A stretch of 64,000 nt of DNA from Parietichytrium sp. I65-24A (lineage: Eukaryota; Sar; Bigyra; Thraustochytrida; Thraustochytriidae), in contig BLSF01000108.1 of NCBI GenBank assembly GCA_012862575.1, positions 1-64,000 of the forward strand, given 5' to 3'. Below are positions 15,668-23,593 of this stretch, piece by piece; the stretch's first letter is position 1, and each line of letters opens with the position of its first letter. Below the pieces are notes generated by a model. The model was not told the DNA's origin and did no database searches. It worked only from the letters and a program-made list of their open reading frames with translations. The position numbers were made by a program, and so were the translations under genes.

Positions 15668-17782
15668 ATGGCGAAGCGTGGTGCTGCGGTAGACCCTTGC
15701 AGGGGAGATGACGCACCGCCGACGAAGAGAAAAGGCGGAACGGCGTGGATTGCGCGTCGCAAACAGAACCGCGTGCAAAATAGGAAGTTCAATCGCAAGA
15801 GCGCGCTGCGTTATCAGCTTTTGCTGTGCATAATGGCCGTCGCTGGGGTTGTATTCTTCGTGGAACTTAAAGAAGCATCCGGAGGGTCTGAGATGCTCGC
15901 ATATGATTCTGCACGCCCCGGGCGAATGCTGGAGAATAGTACCGGCTCGCAATTCCCAGAAAGTCCTTTCACAGACGAGCAGAGGCTCAAAGGAGGTCTG
16001 ATTCTCAACATTCTCGTGATGTTCTACATGTTCCTGGGCCTTGCTATTGTCTGCGACGAATATTTCGAGCCATCACTGGAGTATATCTGCAGAGACCTCA
16101 AGCTCAAAGAAGATGTCGCAGGGGCTACCTTCATGGCCGCTGGGGGCTCCGCGCCAGAGCTCTTTAGCTCGGTGATTGGTGTCTTCATTACTGAGGATGA
16201 CATCGGATTCGGAACCATTGTGGGGTCAGCGACGTTCAATGTGCTTTTCGTGATCGCAATGTGTTCTTTCATCACATTGAACTTGACACTCAGCTGGTGG
16301 CCGTTGACGAGGGACTCCGTGTTTTATTGCATGTCTATCGTTGTCCTTGTGGTGTGCATCTTTGACAACGAAGTTTCCGTCGGAGAGGCGCTGCTGCTCT
16401 TGTTCATGTACTGTGTCTACATCACTATCATGTACTACAACGAGAGGCTGGAGGTTTGGATGACCAAGCACGTTGAGGCGGCTCAGAGGCCACTCTCACC
16501 TTGGCGAGTAAAGTTGCAGAATTTTACGGAGCATCCTCTCTTTCAAGCGTTCATTTACTTGGTCATCTTTGGAAACTTGGCGACTGTGATTTTGGAGGCA
16601 ACAGGAACCACCGACGACTACGTCAACGACTTGAACACGTTTTTCTCAATCGTATTCATCGCTGAGATGCTCATAAAGTGGTTGGCGTTCTCATTCATGG
16701 GATACTGGCAAAACCCTCTGAACGCTTTCGATGGGACCTTGGCCATGCTCGTTCTGATGGAGTGGCTGTTGGAGCTTCTTGCATTCATCGAAGGATCGAC
16801 AAGCTCTTCGAGCAAGTTTTCTGGCGCATTTAGGGTGCTGCGTTTTCTTCGCATGGCCAGAGGTTTGCGCGTCTTCAAGCTGTACATGGCATCGTTCGCA
16901 GAAAAGGCAGATGCTTGCACTCAGACGGAAGATGGCGACTGGCAACTAGCTGATAACCCGGACGTTATCTCCCGGACCCCGAGCAAAAGGGCTTCTGATG
17001 CGTCAACGAGCTCAGGAAACAGAAAGTCAGCCACAGTCGCTCCTATGCCCGACAATATGGGTTCCGGCAAAGGGGAGGCGTTTGTGTCCGGGCCGGAGCC
17101 TGCAAGACGTGGCTCGAAGGGCTCTCAGCCCGATTCTTCGAGTGCCGTCGACGACGACGACGATGACGACGATGGTCCCGCAAATCCATTCGAAATTCCT
17201 GAGGGAGCCTTCGACAAGGTTATGTGGGCCATCGCTTTTCCGTTGAACATCTGCATGTACCTCACAATTCCAGACTGTCGACGCGAGATTTTTAAGCGTC
17301 TATACTTCGTCACATTCTTGTTTTGCATTTTATGGATTGCTGCACTCGCTTATGTGATGGTGTGGATGGCGACAATTTTTGGAAGCACCCTTCAAATTCC
17401 TGAAGCAATCCTTGGCCTAACTCTCATCGCAGCTGGAACGAGCATTCCGGATCTTCTTAGCAGTATGGCAGTTGCTCGTCGAGGGTTTGGGGACATGGCC
17501 GTTTCCAGTTCCATTGGAAGCAATATCTTTGATATTTTGATCGGACTGCCAATTCCATGGTTTATCAAGACGGCGATTTACGCCCCGGGAACCACCGTTC
17601 ACATCGAATCTTGCGGGCTCACCATAATTGTGCTGACTCTCTTCATCATGGTTGCAGCTGTCATCTCAATTATCCATTGGAGCAATTGGGTCATGTCGCG
17701 AAGACTTGGAATTGCAATGGTCGTTCTGTACTTTCTATTTGTTGTCGAATCCGTCGTCGTTGAGCTGGTCTACACGTGTTGA
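15668..17782 (+). CDS. K+-dependent Na+/Ca2+ exchanger (NCKX/SLC24 type) with embedded S1-S4 voltage-sensor domain
   Basis: A 704-residue single-exon membrane protein. Both exchanger signature repeats are present: alpha-1 at 152-168 (GATFMAAGGSAPELFSS, E164) and alpha-2 at about 583-625 (GLTLIAAGTSIPDLLSS with D595, then SSSIGSNIFDILIGLPIPW). The IPD aspartate matches the residue linked to K+ dependence in NCKX. In place of the usual cytosolic loop lies a four-helix voltage-sensor module: S1 near 288-310; S2 with FIAEMLIKW (E333, K337); S3 with NAFD (D355); S4 with five arginines every third residue, R389, R392, R395, R398 and R401. No S5-pore-S6 follows; instead comes a Ser-rich linker and a poly-Asp stretch (about 493-500), then the second exchanger half. 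N-terminal residues 1-60 are basic with one hydrophobic helix. Expected role: plasma-membrane Ca2+ extrusion, possibly gated or tuned by voltage (inference). Confidence 0.93.
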   Translation: MAKRGAAVDPCRGDDAPPTKRKGGTAWIARRKQNRVQNRKFNRKSALRYQLLLCIMAVAGVVFFVELKEASGGSEMLAYDSARPGRMLENSTGSQFPESPFTDEQRLKGGLILNILVMFYMFLGLAIVCDEYFEPSLEYICRDLKLKEDVAGATFMAAGGSAPELFSSVIGVFITEDDIGFGTIVGSATFNVLFVIAMCSFITLNLTLSWWPLTRDSVFYCMSIVVLVVCIFDNEVSVGEALLLLFMYCVYITIMYYNERLEVWMTKHVEAAQRPLSPWRVKLQNFTEHPLFQAFIYLVIFGNLATVILEATGTTDDYVNDLNTFFSIVFIAEMLIKWLAFSFMGYWQNPLNAFDGTLAMLVLMEWLLELLAFIEGSTSSSSKFSGAFRVLRFLRMARGLRVFKLYMASFAEKADACTQTEDGDWQLADNPDVISRTPSKRASDASTSSGNRKSATVAPMPDNMGSGKGEAFVSGPEPARRGSKGSQPDSSSAVDDDDDDDDGPANPFEIPEGAFDKVMWAIAFPLNICMYLTIPDCRREIFKRLYFVTFLFCILWIAALAYVMVWMATIFGSTLQIPEAILGLTLIAAGTSIPDLLSSMAVARRGFGDMAVSSSIGSNIFDILIGLPIPWFIKTAIYAPGTTVHIESCGLTIIVLTLFIMVAAVISIIHWSNWVMSRRLGIAMVVLYFLFVVESVVVELVYTC

Positions 17783-19311: not shown

Positions 19312-20674
19312 CTTGTGCTTGTTCTAAGTTATGCTTCTGCTTCTGCTTGTTCTACTTGTGCTTGTGTTTGTTTGGGTTGGCAACTGCTTGTTCAAGTTCT
19401 CACAGTCAAATCAATGAAGAGAACTGATTGTGTGAGTGATTATTGCGCGTTTCCAGTGTTAGTGTTAATCGCTCGCGGAGAGTCACTGGTCTTTTGCTCG
19501 TTGTTTTTGGTCCTCTCAGGCTGGGAACTTCAAGTTGAAGTTCAAGTTCAACTTCAAGTAAGTTTGTTTGCTTGTTTGTTTGTTGGATGCTTCCTTGGTT
19601 GTGCTCTTGCTTGTGCTCCTGCTTTGTTGTGCTTCGCTTGTGCTTCGCTTGAGGTTTTTGCAGCTTCTCGGATCTGCTGCGATCTATAGGAACGGCTGTA
19701 GGGCCACTTTCCTCAGCGTACGCGGTGTACAGGGGATGCACACAATTAGCAGAATGCTCTATGCGGCGCTAGATCCAAACGGAGCGATTATTCGAGGGGA
19801 TTGTTCGAAGACGCACAGTCAAGACTAGACTCTGGACTTTTCGGTACTTTTTCAAGAGTAATGTCCCTGGTCCGGTGTGAGCGTATGGCGAACAAGGAAT
19901 AGCTCACGGGGGGTGCGGATGCATGAAACACAGGGTGATCCTGGAACGTCCTCTGTCCGGAACAAGTTGGTACGCAAGTGTTAAGAGCTGTTACACCACC
20001 GCGTATGTCAGTGTCCTCGAGTACAGATTCATAGTGCACACGCTTGATTGCACACTAGAACGGAGCATGCTATAGAACAGAGTAACTGATGCGATAGAAC
20101 TTGTGTCGGCAAAAGTGTGCAGTTTGTTCGCTGTCTGTCTGGATTGTTTCAAGTTGAAAAACAAATTGACTTATTGCTTCAAGTGCTTGTACTACTCTTG
20201 CGATCTCTTGCGGAGGACGGGCAAGTAGAGAAGCAATTTGTGAGAGGGCTTTGCCATTGCCAAGAAGAACAACAATAACAACAACAACAACAACAACAAC
20301 AACAAAGTATACATAGCGCACAGAGTTGGCCTTGGCAATAGATCCTATAGTTTGATAGTTTGATAATTTGGAGAGTGCTGATTGCCTTTGGTTGCCTTTT
20401 GGCTTTGTGATTGTCTCGTGGAGTGGACTAGCTTGCATGCGCAGCAGAAGAAGCAAGCTGCTGGGACATATCGATTGGAACGTAGACAGCGGATCAGGCG
20501 TCTGTTCGCTGGAGCTTTGTGGGTTTGGTTCGCGAAGCCCGCATTGAGTTGAGAGAGTTTGCTGCTAGAGTTGCGTTTGTTGAATTTTGCAGACCTTGTC
20601 AAGATTCTTGGCACGAGGGTATTGGCCGTGGACGACAAATTTGGCGACGGGACGAGTGGATTGCACGGTATCAT
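19312..20674. other. Divergent intergenic region (BLOC1S2 / PLD promoters)
   Basis: Probable promoter area for two divergent genes. Contains T/G-rich low-complexity sequence at 19.33-19.65 kb and an (ACA)n microsatellite at about 20273-20306. An open frame continues upstream of the PLD start to 20519 with no ATG, so an additional upstream PLD exon cannot be excluded. Confidence 0.5.
20273..20306. repeat. (ACA)n microsatellite
   Basis: About eleven ACA triplets in the BLOC1S2-PLD intergenic region. Confidence 0.9.
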
Positions 20675-23593
20675 ATGGCAAAGACGCTCTCAGCTGGCGT
20701 ACGCACGAGTTGCGTGGCAGACGAAGATGGCGAGCTGGTCTTCCGGTGCTTTCGCTCTGCCCAGTCCACGGCTCCCCGCGTGCAAGAGGGCACAGGGAAC
20801 GTGAGAAGTGGGGAATTTGTGGACTGGACGGCTGAGAGTCTCCGCTGGACCATTCGCAAGAACTACAAAGATGTTCGTGCTCTCTTAGAAGTGTGCACGC
20901 CCCTAGTTGGCACCGGCGTTGTTGCGGAGGGAAAAGGGGTGGAGGGCAGCGCGGAATGGGCCGAAAGTGTGGTGAAAATGGCCGTGCGTTCGGTGGAAAG
21001 GCAGGCGGAAATTGCGCTGGAAAGCGGCGACGGTTCAGATCAAGAACTGGACAAGATAGTTGCAGAATTTCTGGAGCTGTCAGTCGCGTCGTCCAGGGCA
21101 GAGCTTGGGGTGGAGGGCAAGTTTATTGAAGGTTATTTGGACAAGTCTGCAGTGTATATCCGAGATGAGCAGATGATCACCAATACCATCTTGGGCTCTC
21201 AGGTTGCATGTATAATAATTGGTTCGATCACAAGTGCTTACATTGGTTCATTCATGGATGTTCTGTGGGGTGTCATTTGTGTCTATCTCCTCGCCGGCCT
21301 GGACCTGTATCTAACGCGCCCGAAGGAGCCGAACCGGGCGCTCTTACTGCCTTGTATTCTGATACCTGTGCTTGGGTTCGGGATCCTCGCGGCATATGTG
21401 GCGTACGATAGCTGTATTCGTAAGCGGAATCGGCGTTGGTTTGTTCTGCGGGAAAACTACATGGCCTACTATAAAAGTAATTATTCGGCGAAACCCTCTG
21501 GAGTCTTTCTGTTCGACCACCGAACGAGGATAAAGGACTCCTGGAAGCCTCACACCTTGTACGTATCAAACGTGGACCGTACCCTGTCCATTCACTTTCA
21601 TAGCCGCGAGGAGAAGAGGCGCTGGAGAGACGCGCTGGAGAGCATTTTGAGCAACCGGAAGCCTCTCACCGAAGAGCAGGAAGCGTTTTTCGTCCCAACT
21701 CGGAACGACGTGCCAGCACAATGGTACTCCTCTGCCAAGTTCTTTTACCGGGACTTGCAGGATCTCATTCGAGAGGCAAGACACGAGATTTACATCGCTG
21801 GGTGGATGATCTCTCCTGAGCTTTTACTTGTGCGCGATGAGGAGAACCAGTCTGTTTCTTTGGAAAAGCTGTTGGGCGAGGCCGTAGAGCGCGGAGTTTG
21901 TGTTCACGTGTTGTTATACCGAGATGTCGATTTTGCGCTGCCAAATAATTCGGCGCACGCGAAGAGGCGCTTGTCTGAAGTTGGTGTCCAAATCATTCGC
22001 CACGCAGCGCAGGATCGCGCAATCGCTGCGCATTCTCACCTGATAGGAATGCAAGCTGGAAGTACTTGGTGGTCGCATCACGAGAAGCTCGTCATCATAG
22101 ATCAGCGTAAGTTTGGTGTTTGTAAGACGTGCAATTGGTCCGGCGGCGTGCGAGTGGATTTTTTCGCCTTCTAACGTTTGGTCGTTTTTCTTTCTTGGGG
22201 CGCTTTAATGGGCAAATCAGGAATCGCTTTCGTTGGGGGAATCGATCTTGCATTTGGGAGATATGACGACATTAATTATTCGCTCACGGACGCCCGCGTG
22301 CCATACACCTGGCCCGGAAAAGACTATTACAACGTCCGTGTGAAAGAGTTTGAGGATTTGCAGGATCCGCATTCGGACTTGGTGGATCGGAAGAAAGTTG
22401 GCCGCATGCCCTGGCATGATATACACTGCTGTGTCGGAGGCGACGCGGCTCGCGACGTCGCCCTTCATTTTATCGCACGTTGGAATCGAGAGTTGCACCA
22501 GCTGGCGTCGTTTCAAACCAAAAAAGCTGAATACGACTATTTACTGCCTGCCAGGTATCCCGGGGGCTTCCAGGTAGAGGAGTACCTCCCTTACAATTGC
22601 TCCAAGATCCAAATTCTGCGATCTGTGGGTCCTTGGTCGTTGTCTGCGAAAACAGAAGACTCCATTCGGCGCAAGTATCTTGCTCTGATCAGAGAATCGA
22701 AAAGGTTCATCTACATTGAAAACCAGTTCTTCAATTCGATGATCATTGCCCGTGCCATTGCGGACAGACTAGAGCGCGCGATTGTCGACGGAGAAGTAGA
22801 TTTCCGCGTCATTGTGGTGTTACCTCAATGGCCAGCGTTTGAAGGGATGCCATTTGACAATGCTTCCACCAAGGTTGTACTGCATTCGCAGCATCGAACG
22901 ATGGATTTCATTTACGATCACTTATCAAAGCTCGGTATCGACGATGGTCGAAAAGGGCAAATGATACAATTTGCGTCGCTGAGGAAGGTGGATTTTCTCC
23001 ACGGGGAGATGATTTCAGAGCAAATTTATGTTCACAGTAAATTACTGATTGTAGACGACGAGCAGTGCATCATAGGGAGTGCGAACCTGAACGAGAGAAG
23101 CCTCAATGGGGACCGAGATTCAGAGGTTTGCGCATTCATTGCTGATCGCCGTTTTGCCAGTGACTTGCGTTGTAGTCTTTACATTGAGCACCTCGGCCTG
23201 CACGGAAGCAGCTCATGCTCAGGCTGCCGTCTGTGTTCGAGCACCAGGCGAACGAGGGAAGCCGTTCTACCAGATCCTGCTCTCCACGCCGTGGTGGACG
23301 TAACAAGCCCTCTCTTTGGCCAAATTGCAAGAGAGAACCGCGCTGTGCTAGAAGACCTCTTTCCAGGTTCGCAGCCATCCGACGGCGCTCGCTCCATTGC
23401 CGCGGCCAAGGCTCGTGTGGAAGAGGAGAAGATGAGAGAACTTCAGGTCAATCACAAGCTTTTGGCTGCAGTTAAAGCTCTCAGAGGCCATGTGGTGGAA
23501 ACCCCGAGAAAGTTTTTGCGAGAAGAGGCACAGATGTTGCCGACCCTTTCTCAACCGAGCATCTACATTCTTCCAACCGAGACCTTTGTTTGA
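20675..23593 (+). CDS. PLD: Phospholipase D with two membrane helices and a PH-like domain, two exons
   Basis: Exons 20675-22106 and 22221-23593, joined across a 114-nt intron (donor CAGC/GTAAGT, acceptor ATCAG), give 934 residues. The splice joins the first HKD motif: H469-x-K471-x4-D476, continuing IAFVGGIDLAFGRYD. The second motif is H749-x-K751-x4-D756 followed by GSANLNERSLNGDRDSE, so both catalytic halves are intact and phosphatidylcholine hydrolysis to phosphatidate is expected. N-terminal residues 1-165 are divergent (a PX domain would sit here but I cannot prove it). Two hydrophobic segments (about 169-212 and 222-244) precede a PH-like fold (about 249-325, RRWFVLRENYMAYYK ... RRWRDAL). 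This order resembles PXTM-PLD of oomycetes. The ATG at 20675 is the first in an open frame that begins earlier at a non-ATG codon. Confidence 0.9.

Follow-up and report, generated by a model that had tools for sequence, protein, structure and literature searches.

A Cav-type voltage-sensor domain in the central loop of an NCKX-type Na+/Ca2+ exchanger from Parietichytrium sp. I65-24A

A gene in a 64,000-nucleotide stretch of the Parietichytrium sp. I65-24A genome (hereafter, the window) was found to encode, on one chain, a predicted K+-dependent Na+/Ca2+ exchanger (SLC24/NCKX type) and a canonical Cav-type voltage-sensor domain (VSD) placed in the central inter-repeat loop of the exchanger. Sequence comparison confirmed this architecture: an S1–S4 module between the two exchanger halves, as put forward in the original prediction, was recovered by matching Na_Ca_ex to the whole protein and Ion_trans to the segment of residues 275–412. 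The gene is an uninterrupted frame of 704 residues without internal stop (15668–17782 of the window, forward strand, as are all features of this gene), and its NCKX–VSD–NCKX order was read from the ORF and from phmmer searches against PDB sequences. A signal-anchor-like hydrophobic segment with approximate ends at residues 48 and 68 (15809–15871; hydropathy peak at 51–67) lies at the N terminus.

The continuity of the gene was assessed at both junctions. Both boundaries of the insert are in frame and fall within the inter-repeat loop, and the codon usage of the insert is that of the exchanger (968 of 2,000 random splits were as low). The coding sequence (15668–17782) contains no GT[AG]AG donor, a pattern that does not exclude weaker GT sites; the neighboring gene has an apparent GTAAGT intron, so the genome does have introns and the exchanger–VSD gene is without sign of one. 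An assembly or gene-model artefact, in the form of a chimeric contig, two separate genes or an insert that is spliced out, could draw on weak GT dinucleotides at residues 263 and 269, between TM5 and the sensor; given the in-frame junctions and the missing donor, we regard it as hardly credible. The neighboring gene (20519–23593, forward strand) is phospholipase D-like by eye and is read as two same-frame ORFs, as an in-frame stop lies inside its apparent short intron, which starts with GTAAGT at about 22107. Many long uninterrupted frames were present in the genome.

The first exchanger half (residues 108–270; 15989–16477) contains the alpha-1 repeat and the second (residues 511–704; 17198–17779) the alpha-2 repeat. 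With Pfam, Na_Ca_ex matched the whole protein in two stretches totaling 189.7 bits, the second of which covers residues 546–693, and phmmer against PDB sequences aligned residues 111–254 and 545–699 to NCLX, with NCX1 and NCX_Mj also matched. TIGR00927, the NCBIfam model for K+-dependent exchangers, recognized both halves and was the best NCBIfam model, with a score of 393 bits (E 2.3e-117) that is below its curated cut-off of 710 bits; the same cut-off was missed by all six paralogues scanned, and the score of the exchanger–VSD protein was the highest among the seven own-genome proteins. The NCX1 model TIGR00845 gave 82 bits compared to 393 bits for TIGR00927, while the calcium/sodium antiporter model TIGR00367 scored above its cut-off (289 versus 180 bits). 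The alpha-1 motif GGSAPEL (residues 159–165; 16142–16162) places G160, S161 and E164 at G184, S185 and E188 of NCKX2, the alpha-2 motif GTSIPD (residues 590–595; 17435–17452) places T591, S592, P594 and D595 at T544, S545, P547 and D548, and D622 (17531–17533) corresponds to the cation-site residue D575, which is linked to K+ dependence in NCKX2. The 11 cation-site residues of human NCKX2 named in the available part of PMC12150658 are all identical in the window protein, at constant offsets of −24 in the first repeat and +47 in the second. Among the six NCKX-type paralogues of the genome, the G184 position is altered in every one and D575 also in two; among 31 aligned prokaryotic relatives, the corresponding counts are 31 and one. 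By these comparisons the subfamily closest to the exchanger–VSD protein is the K+-dependent one, in agreement with the NCKX assignment originally proposed, and transport of 4Na:1Ca+1K is predicted.

The loop between the halves holds a poreless VSD (residues 275–412; 16490–16903), delimited by PDB matches to T-type Cav channels, by Ion_trans and by an own-genome scan. The interval first given for it, 16500–16960, is close to the sensor proper and also takes in some of the linker that follows. Its four helices, all with approximate ends, were placed as S1 (residues 288–310; 16529–16597; holding N303) from hydropathy at 293–309 and the Cav-sensor alignment, S2 (residues 320–342; 16625–16693; F330, E333 and K337) and S3 (residues 351–374; 16718–16789; D355) from alignment and hydropathy, and S4 (residues 386–406; 16823–16885; R389, R392, R395, R398, R401 and K404) from PDB matches and alignment. 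E333, K337, D355 and the five arginines were all found where they had been predicted; beyond the arginines, K404 extends the S4 ladder to six steps, and F330 stands at E−3. A run of six K/R at i,i+3 spacing arose in 25 of 200,000 whole-protein shuffles, and homology is stronger evidence for a sensor than this ladder pattern.

When residues 275–411 alone were compared with PDB sequences, T-type Cav chains came out on top (best chain, E 6.8e-24), followed by Nav and L-type chains, NALCN and two-pore channels. The best single stretch in a T-type Cav (i-E 7.7e-9), taken for repeat III as judged by position, aligns its S4 arginines without gaps to R389–R401. A PDB chain named 'Chloroplast PsbY' (9hd7_U) was also returned at E 4e-11, with no single stretch passing alone. 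Ion_trans matched the segment with 61.1 bits (E 1.2e-16) over profile positions 1–117 of 241, the S1–S4 half, and an independent genome-wide scan with the same profile gave 59.6 bits at 16532–16882. No S5–P–S6 pore follows S4, in line with the end of the profile match at position 117, and the original statement that a pore is absent holds. The Pfam scan of the whole protein reported Na_Ca_ex only and Ion_trans emerged once the segment was scanned alone, suggesting that automatic annotation may overlook such fusions.

The sensor was further compared with nine own-genome sensors, namely repeats II–IV of three Cav-like proteins (on contigs C126, C1 and C4), a set that includes neither their first repeats nor the remaining Cav-like proteins of the genome. 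With hhalign, residues 276–364 (S1 to mid S3, with S4 unaligned) matched this set at a probability of 97.4 (E 1e-11), compared to 0.3 for the central loop of the closest paralogue, where the hydropathy profile showed no peak at the chosen threshold. The window VSD keeps eight of the nine columns that do not vary among the Cav sensors, at 19–27% identity, indicating that the charge-sensing positions were retained while the rest diverged. A VSD tree of 33 rows, comprising the window row and 32 of 45 profile matches (E < 1e-7, >60 profile positions; two of the rows carry the same sequence), placed the window sensor beside the fourth-repeat sensors of the Cav-like proteins on C1 and C4 with 85/85 support, not starred. 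For the origin of the sensor, the tree may point to these fourth repeats, and the best PDB match to a T-type channel. At 2.55 changes per column, the sensor sits on a long branch, which is compatible with relaxed constraint as well as with specialization. This branch, together with an architecture so far known from one genome, would also suit an ordinary NCKX whose insert has decayed to a remnant or does no more than anchor the protein in the membrane; we judge that improbable, as the charge-sensing positions are intact despite the low identity to own-genome Cav sensors, the frame is open and codon usage is uniform.

Another reading is that the S1–S4 module, joined to the exchanger, provides a proton or gating-pore conductance, as VSDs are able to conduct (PMC10651576, excerpt). 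Three small VSD-only proteins of the same genome (L028, L029 and L030, on contigs C50, C7 and C12) carry RxWRxxRxxH, given as the protist Hv1 motif in part of PMC10377628, and are probable proton channels. The window protein has a Glu, E310, near the outer end of S1, as read from the sequence itself, and Hv1 filters may be Asp or Glu according to the same excerpt. However, neither RxWRxxR nor its RxWRxxR/K form was matched in the exchanger–VSD protein, S1 contains no Asp and the charges of S4 are continuous, which makes a conductance very improbable.

The architecture was set against the rest of the genome (42.5 Mb, 172 contigs). When the sensor alone was used as a phmmer query, Cav-like frames were matched but none of the other exchanger frames retrieved from the genome. 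A genome search with it, at E values of 10 or less, gave 14 matches: the window locus and 13 in channel-like frames. The Ion_trans scan gave 98 matches, including several Cav-like proteins, and seven of the 98 ended before profile position 160. Besides the window VSD, these short matches were the three Hv1-like proteins, a cyclase frame on C27, a VSD-like frame without the Hv1 motif on C30 and part of a channel-like frame on C31 that is broken. The cyclase frame (L026; G000:C27:5500-10400, forward strand; 924 residues) shows an S4-like IVRIVRLIRLVRVVKLYK by eye, followed by Guanylate_cyc at residues 619–810 (29.7 bits); its VSD part scored 25.1 bits against the Ion_trans cut-off of 25 and E 0.54 with our own sensor profile, and Ion_trans was not reported by the whole-protein Pfam scan. 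It is a putative voltage-sensing nucleotide cyclase that resembles the Phytophthora PPTG_13136 family (PMC12223298, excerpt). No protein like SLC9C1, the sperm Na+/H+ exchanger (sNHE), was found; by coordinates, no frame holds both an Ion_trans match and one of the 14 Na_H_Exchanger matches.

Two other exchangers of this protist carry modules at the corresponding place. One Na_Ca_ex protein (L018, G000:C38) has Calx-beta domains in its inter-repeat loop (154 bits, two stretches); Calx-beta is a soluble Ca2+-binding module. The other, an 844-residue frame with a divergent Na_Ca_ex domain (L017, G000:C7), has there an EF-hand pair that scores below threshold. In its alpha-1 region, LGGCTVPLMF takes the place of a GSAPE-type motif, and this exchanger may be altered or non-transporting. 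Inter-repeat modules are therefore not unusual, while a membrane sensor at this place is. In the exchanger tree, L017 joined the window protein (97/92) on a branch of 6.44, and for that reason nothing was built on this grouping; by path length, L009 on C147 was the closest row, with 43% identity over 354 columns. Elsewhere in the genome, the PfaA model gave partial matches only (best 144 bits versus a cut-off of 1,010). A 5,583-residue open frame at G000:C66:8562-22499 has four matches to PfaA profile positions ~176–516, which we take to be the ketosynthase region, and is likely to encode a giant type I polyketide synthase. Light-harvesting proteins and a silicon transporter had no match in the genome.

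Outside this genome, one contig scan yielded 34 loci, 31 of which were aligned as prokaryotic relatives; L052 and L066 were left out because the frame stops before the match end, and L069 because it is truncated. The VSD insert is absent from all 31 aligned relatives, in which the VSD columns hold at most 24 loop residues. Viral contigs scanned with the whole protein, an alignment (A1) and the VSD alone gave no relatives. The best 20 of 94 plasmid matches each cover at most 39% of the query, and where features are annotated, they are calcium/sodium antiporters. At the contig end of L069 (CAJWAH010000042.1, filed as a Synechococcus MAG) lies the start of a truncated NCKX-like exchanger with 53% identity over query residues 82–134, possibly a eukaryotic contamination of the bin. 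Across the prokaryotic, viral and plasmid sequences covered, the NCKX–VSD architecture was not found a second time, and it is so far known from one genome.

We consider it probable that the window protein is an NCKX with an inserted Cav-type VSD whose S4 movement would change the exchange rate; for such a protein, a voltage-regulated calcium extruder is the most likely function, in agreement with the original suggestion that it could be one; both this function and its gating direction are inferred. In NCX/NCKX proteins the central loop faces the cytosol, so the start of S1 and the end of S4 would be cytosolic too, and the even number of inserted helices would keep the topology. S4 would move outward on depolarization in the usual way, and its movement could reach the exchange rate through the short TM5–S1 connection, through side-by-side packing or through the S4–linker–TM6 connection. 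TM5 and S1 are separated by ~33 residues (255–287), and S4 and TM6 by ~100 Asp/Ser-rich residues. This second linker (residues 413–510; 16904–17197) is, by composition, rich in Asp, Ser, Ala, Gly and Pro with a run of eight Asp, and looks disordered. Such a linker, without an obvious coupling helix, would also suit a working sensor that serves another role, with its S4 residues kept; it might position the protein beside channels or signal by its own movement, leaving exchange not directly voltage-gated. We find this unlikely, as the insert occupies the inter-repeat loop, like the Calx-beta and EF-hand-like modules of the two own-genome exchangers, and SLC9C1 provides an example of a VSD able to gate an exchanger (PMC6052114, available part).

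If the VSD does regulate exchange, depolarization-activated Ca2+ extrusion is slightly favored; hyperpolarization activation would be the main alternative direction by analogy with SLC9C1, for which it is described in the same part of PMC6052114. Under assumed marine concentrations (Na 460/30, K 10/200 and Ca 10 mM/100 nM), reversal at 100 nM cytosolic Ca2+ was calculated at about +61 mV for 4Na:1Ca+1K and about −84 mV for a 3:1 exchanger, and at 1 μM cytosolic Ca2+ at +119 and −26 mV, respectively. A 4Na:1Ca+1K exchanger would therefore extrude up to about +61 mV, and switching it on with Cav opening would clear the admitted Ca2+; according to PMC9820825, the stoichiometry of NCKX allows Ca2+ efflux to be maintained when the membrane potential is reduced. 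More tentatively, and at somewhat less than even chances, the protein may represent a second, independently evolved voltage-gated transporter, an NCKX switched by a Cav-derived sensor in an excitable unicell in which depolarization would drive both Ca2+ entry (through Cav) and exit (through the exchanger). If true, this would show that transporters acquired voltage gating on more than one occasion, would offer a way to learn which coupling geometry is required, and would suggest that some protists time Ca2+ removal electrically.

Compared to known systems, the exchanger resembles human NCKX2 in its TIGR00927 match and its shared cation site, and differs from NCKX exchangers in having a sensor, which is unmentioned in the portions of the NCKX literature covered; PMC9820825, a review of NCKX regulation, does not use the word 'voltage' in its main text. 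The sensor has an S1–S4 homologous to that of T-type Cav and own-genome Cav-like proteins, which differ in having S5–pore–S6 after it. NCX-type exchangers with Calx-beta, such as the own-genome paralogue on C38, also carry an extra inter-repeat module, although it is Calx-beta and not a membrane sensor. A poreless or repurposed VSD is likewise found in Hv1, voltage-sensing phosphatases and VSD-cyclases, whereas the partner here is a transporter, and the Hv1 S4 motif is missing.

The closest parallel is SLC9C1, described in part of PMC10620092 as the one transporter known to be under the control of voltage-sensing domains, and the parallel drawn in the original prediction stands. Both are secondary-active cation exchangers with an S1–S4 sensor per chain and a six-step basic S4 ladder, and the spacing is alike, with F330/E333, D355 and R389–K404 compared to Y743/E746 of S2, D767 of S3 and K800-R803-R806-R809-R812-K815 of S4 in the proven SLC9C1 sensor (PMC13095418, excerpt). 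SLC9C1 belongs to the SLC9 family and has a Na_H_Exchanger domain, whereas the window protein is of the SLC24 type and whole-protein Pfam found Na_Ca_ex only. The SLC9C1 sensor is C-terminal to the exchanger (PMC10651576, in part) and is accompanied by a cyclic-nucleotide-binding domain (PMC6052114, in part); the window sensor lies between the exchanger halves, and Pfam detected no such nucleotide-binding domain. The long S4 of SLC9C1 acts as a rigid S4-to-transporter lever (excerpt of PMC10620092), which is not evident in the window protein because of its ~100-residue, disordered-looking S4–TM6 linker. No NCX/NCKX–VSD fusion was found among the matches listed from the titles and abstract starts of the open full-text literature; the available parts of PMC4820453 and PMC11085791 mention none, and those of the reviews PMC13095418 and PMC10651576 name no further VSD-bearing transporter. 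An earlier listing of the NCKX–VSD architecture in subscription papers, on bioRxiv or in protein and domain-architecture databases is possible. With SLC9C1, a VSD-bearing transporter was already known; what would be new, judging from the domain order, is a VSD in another exchanger family and at another place in the chain.
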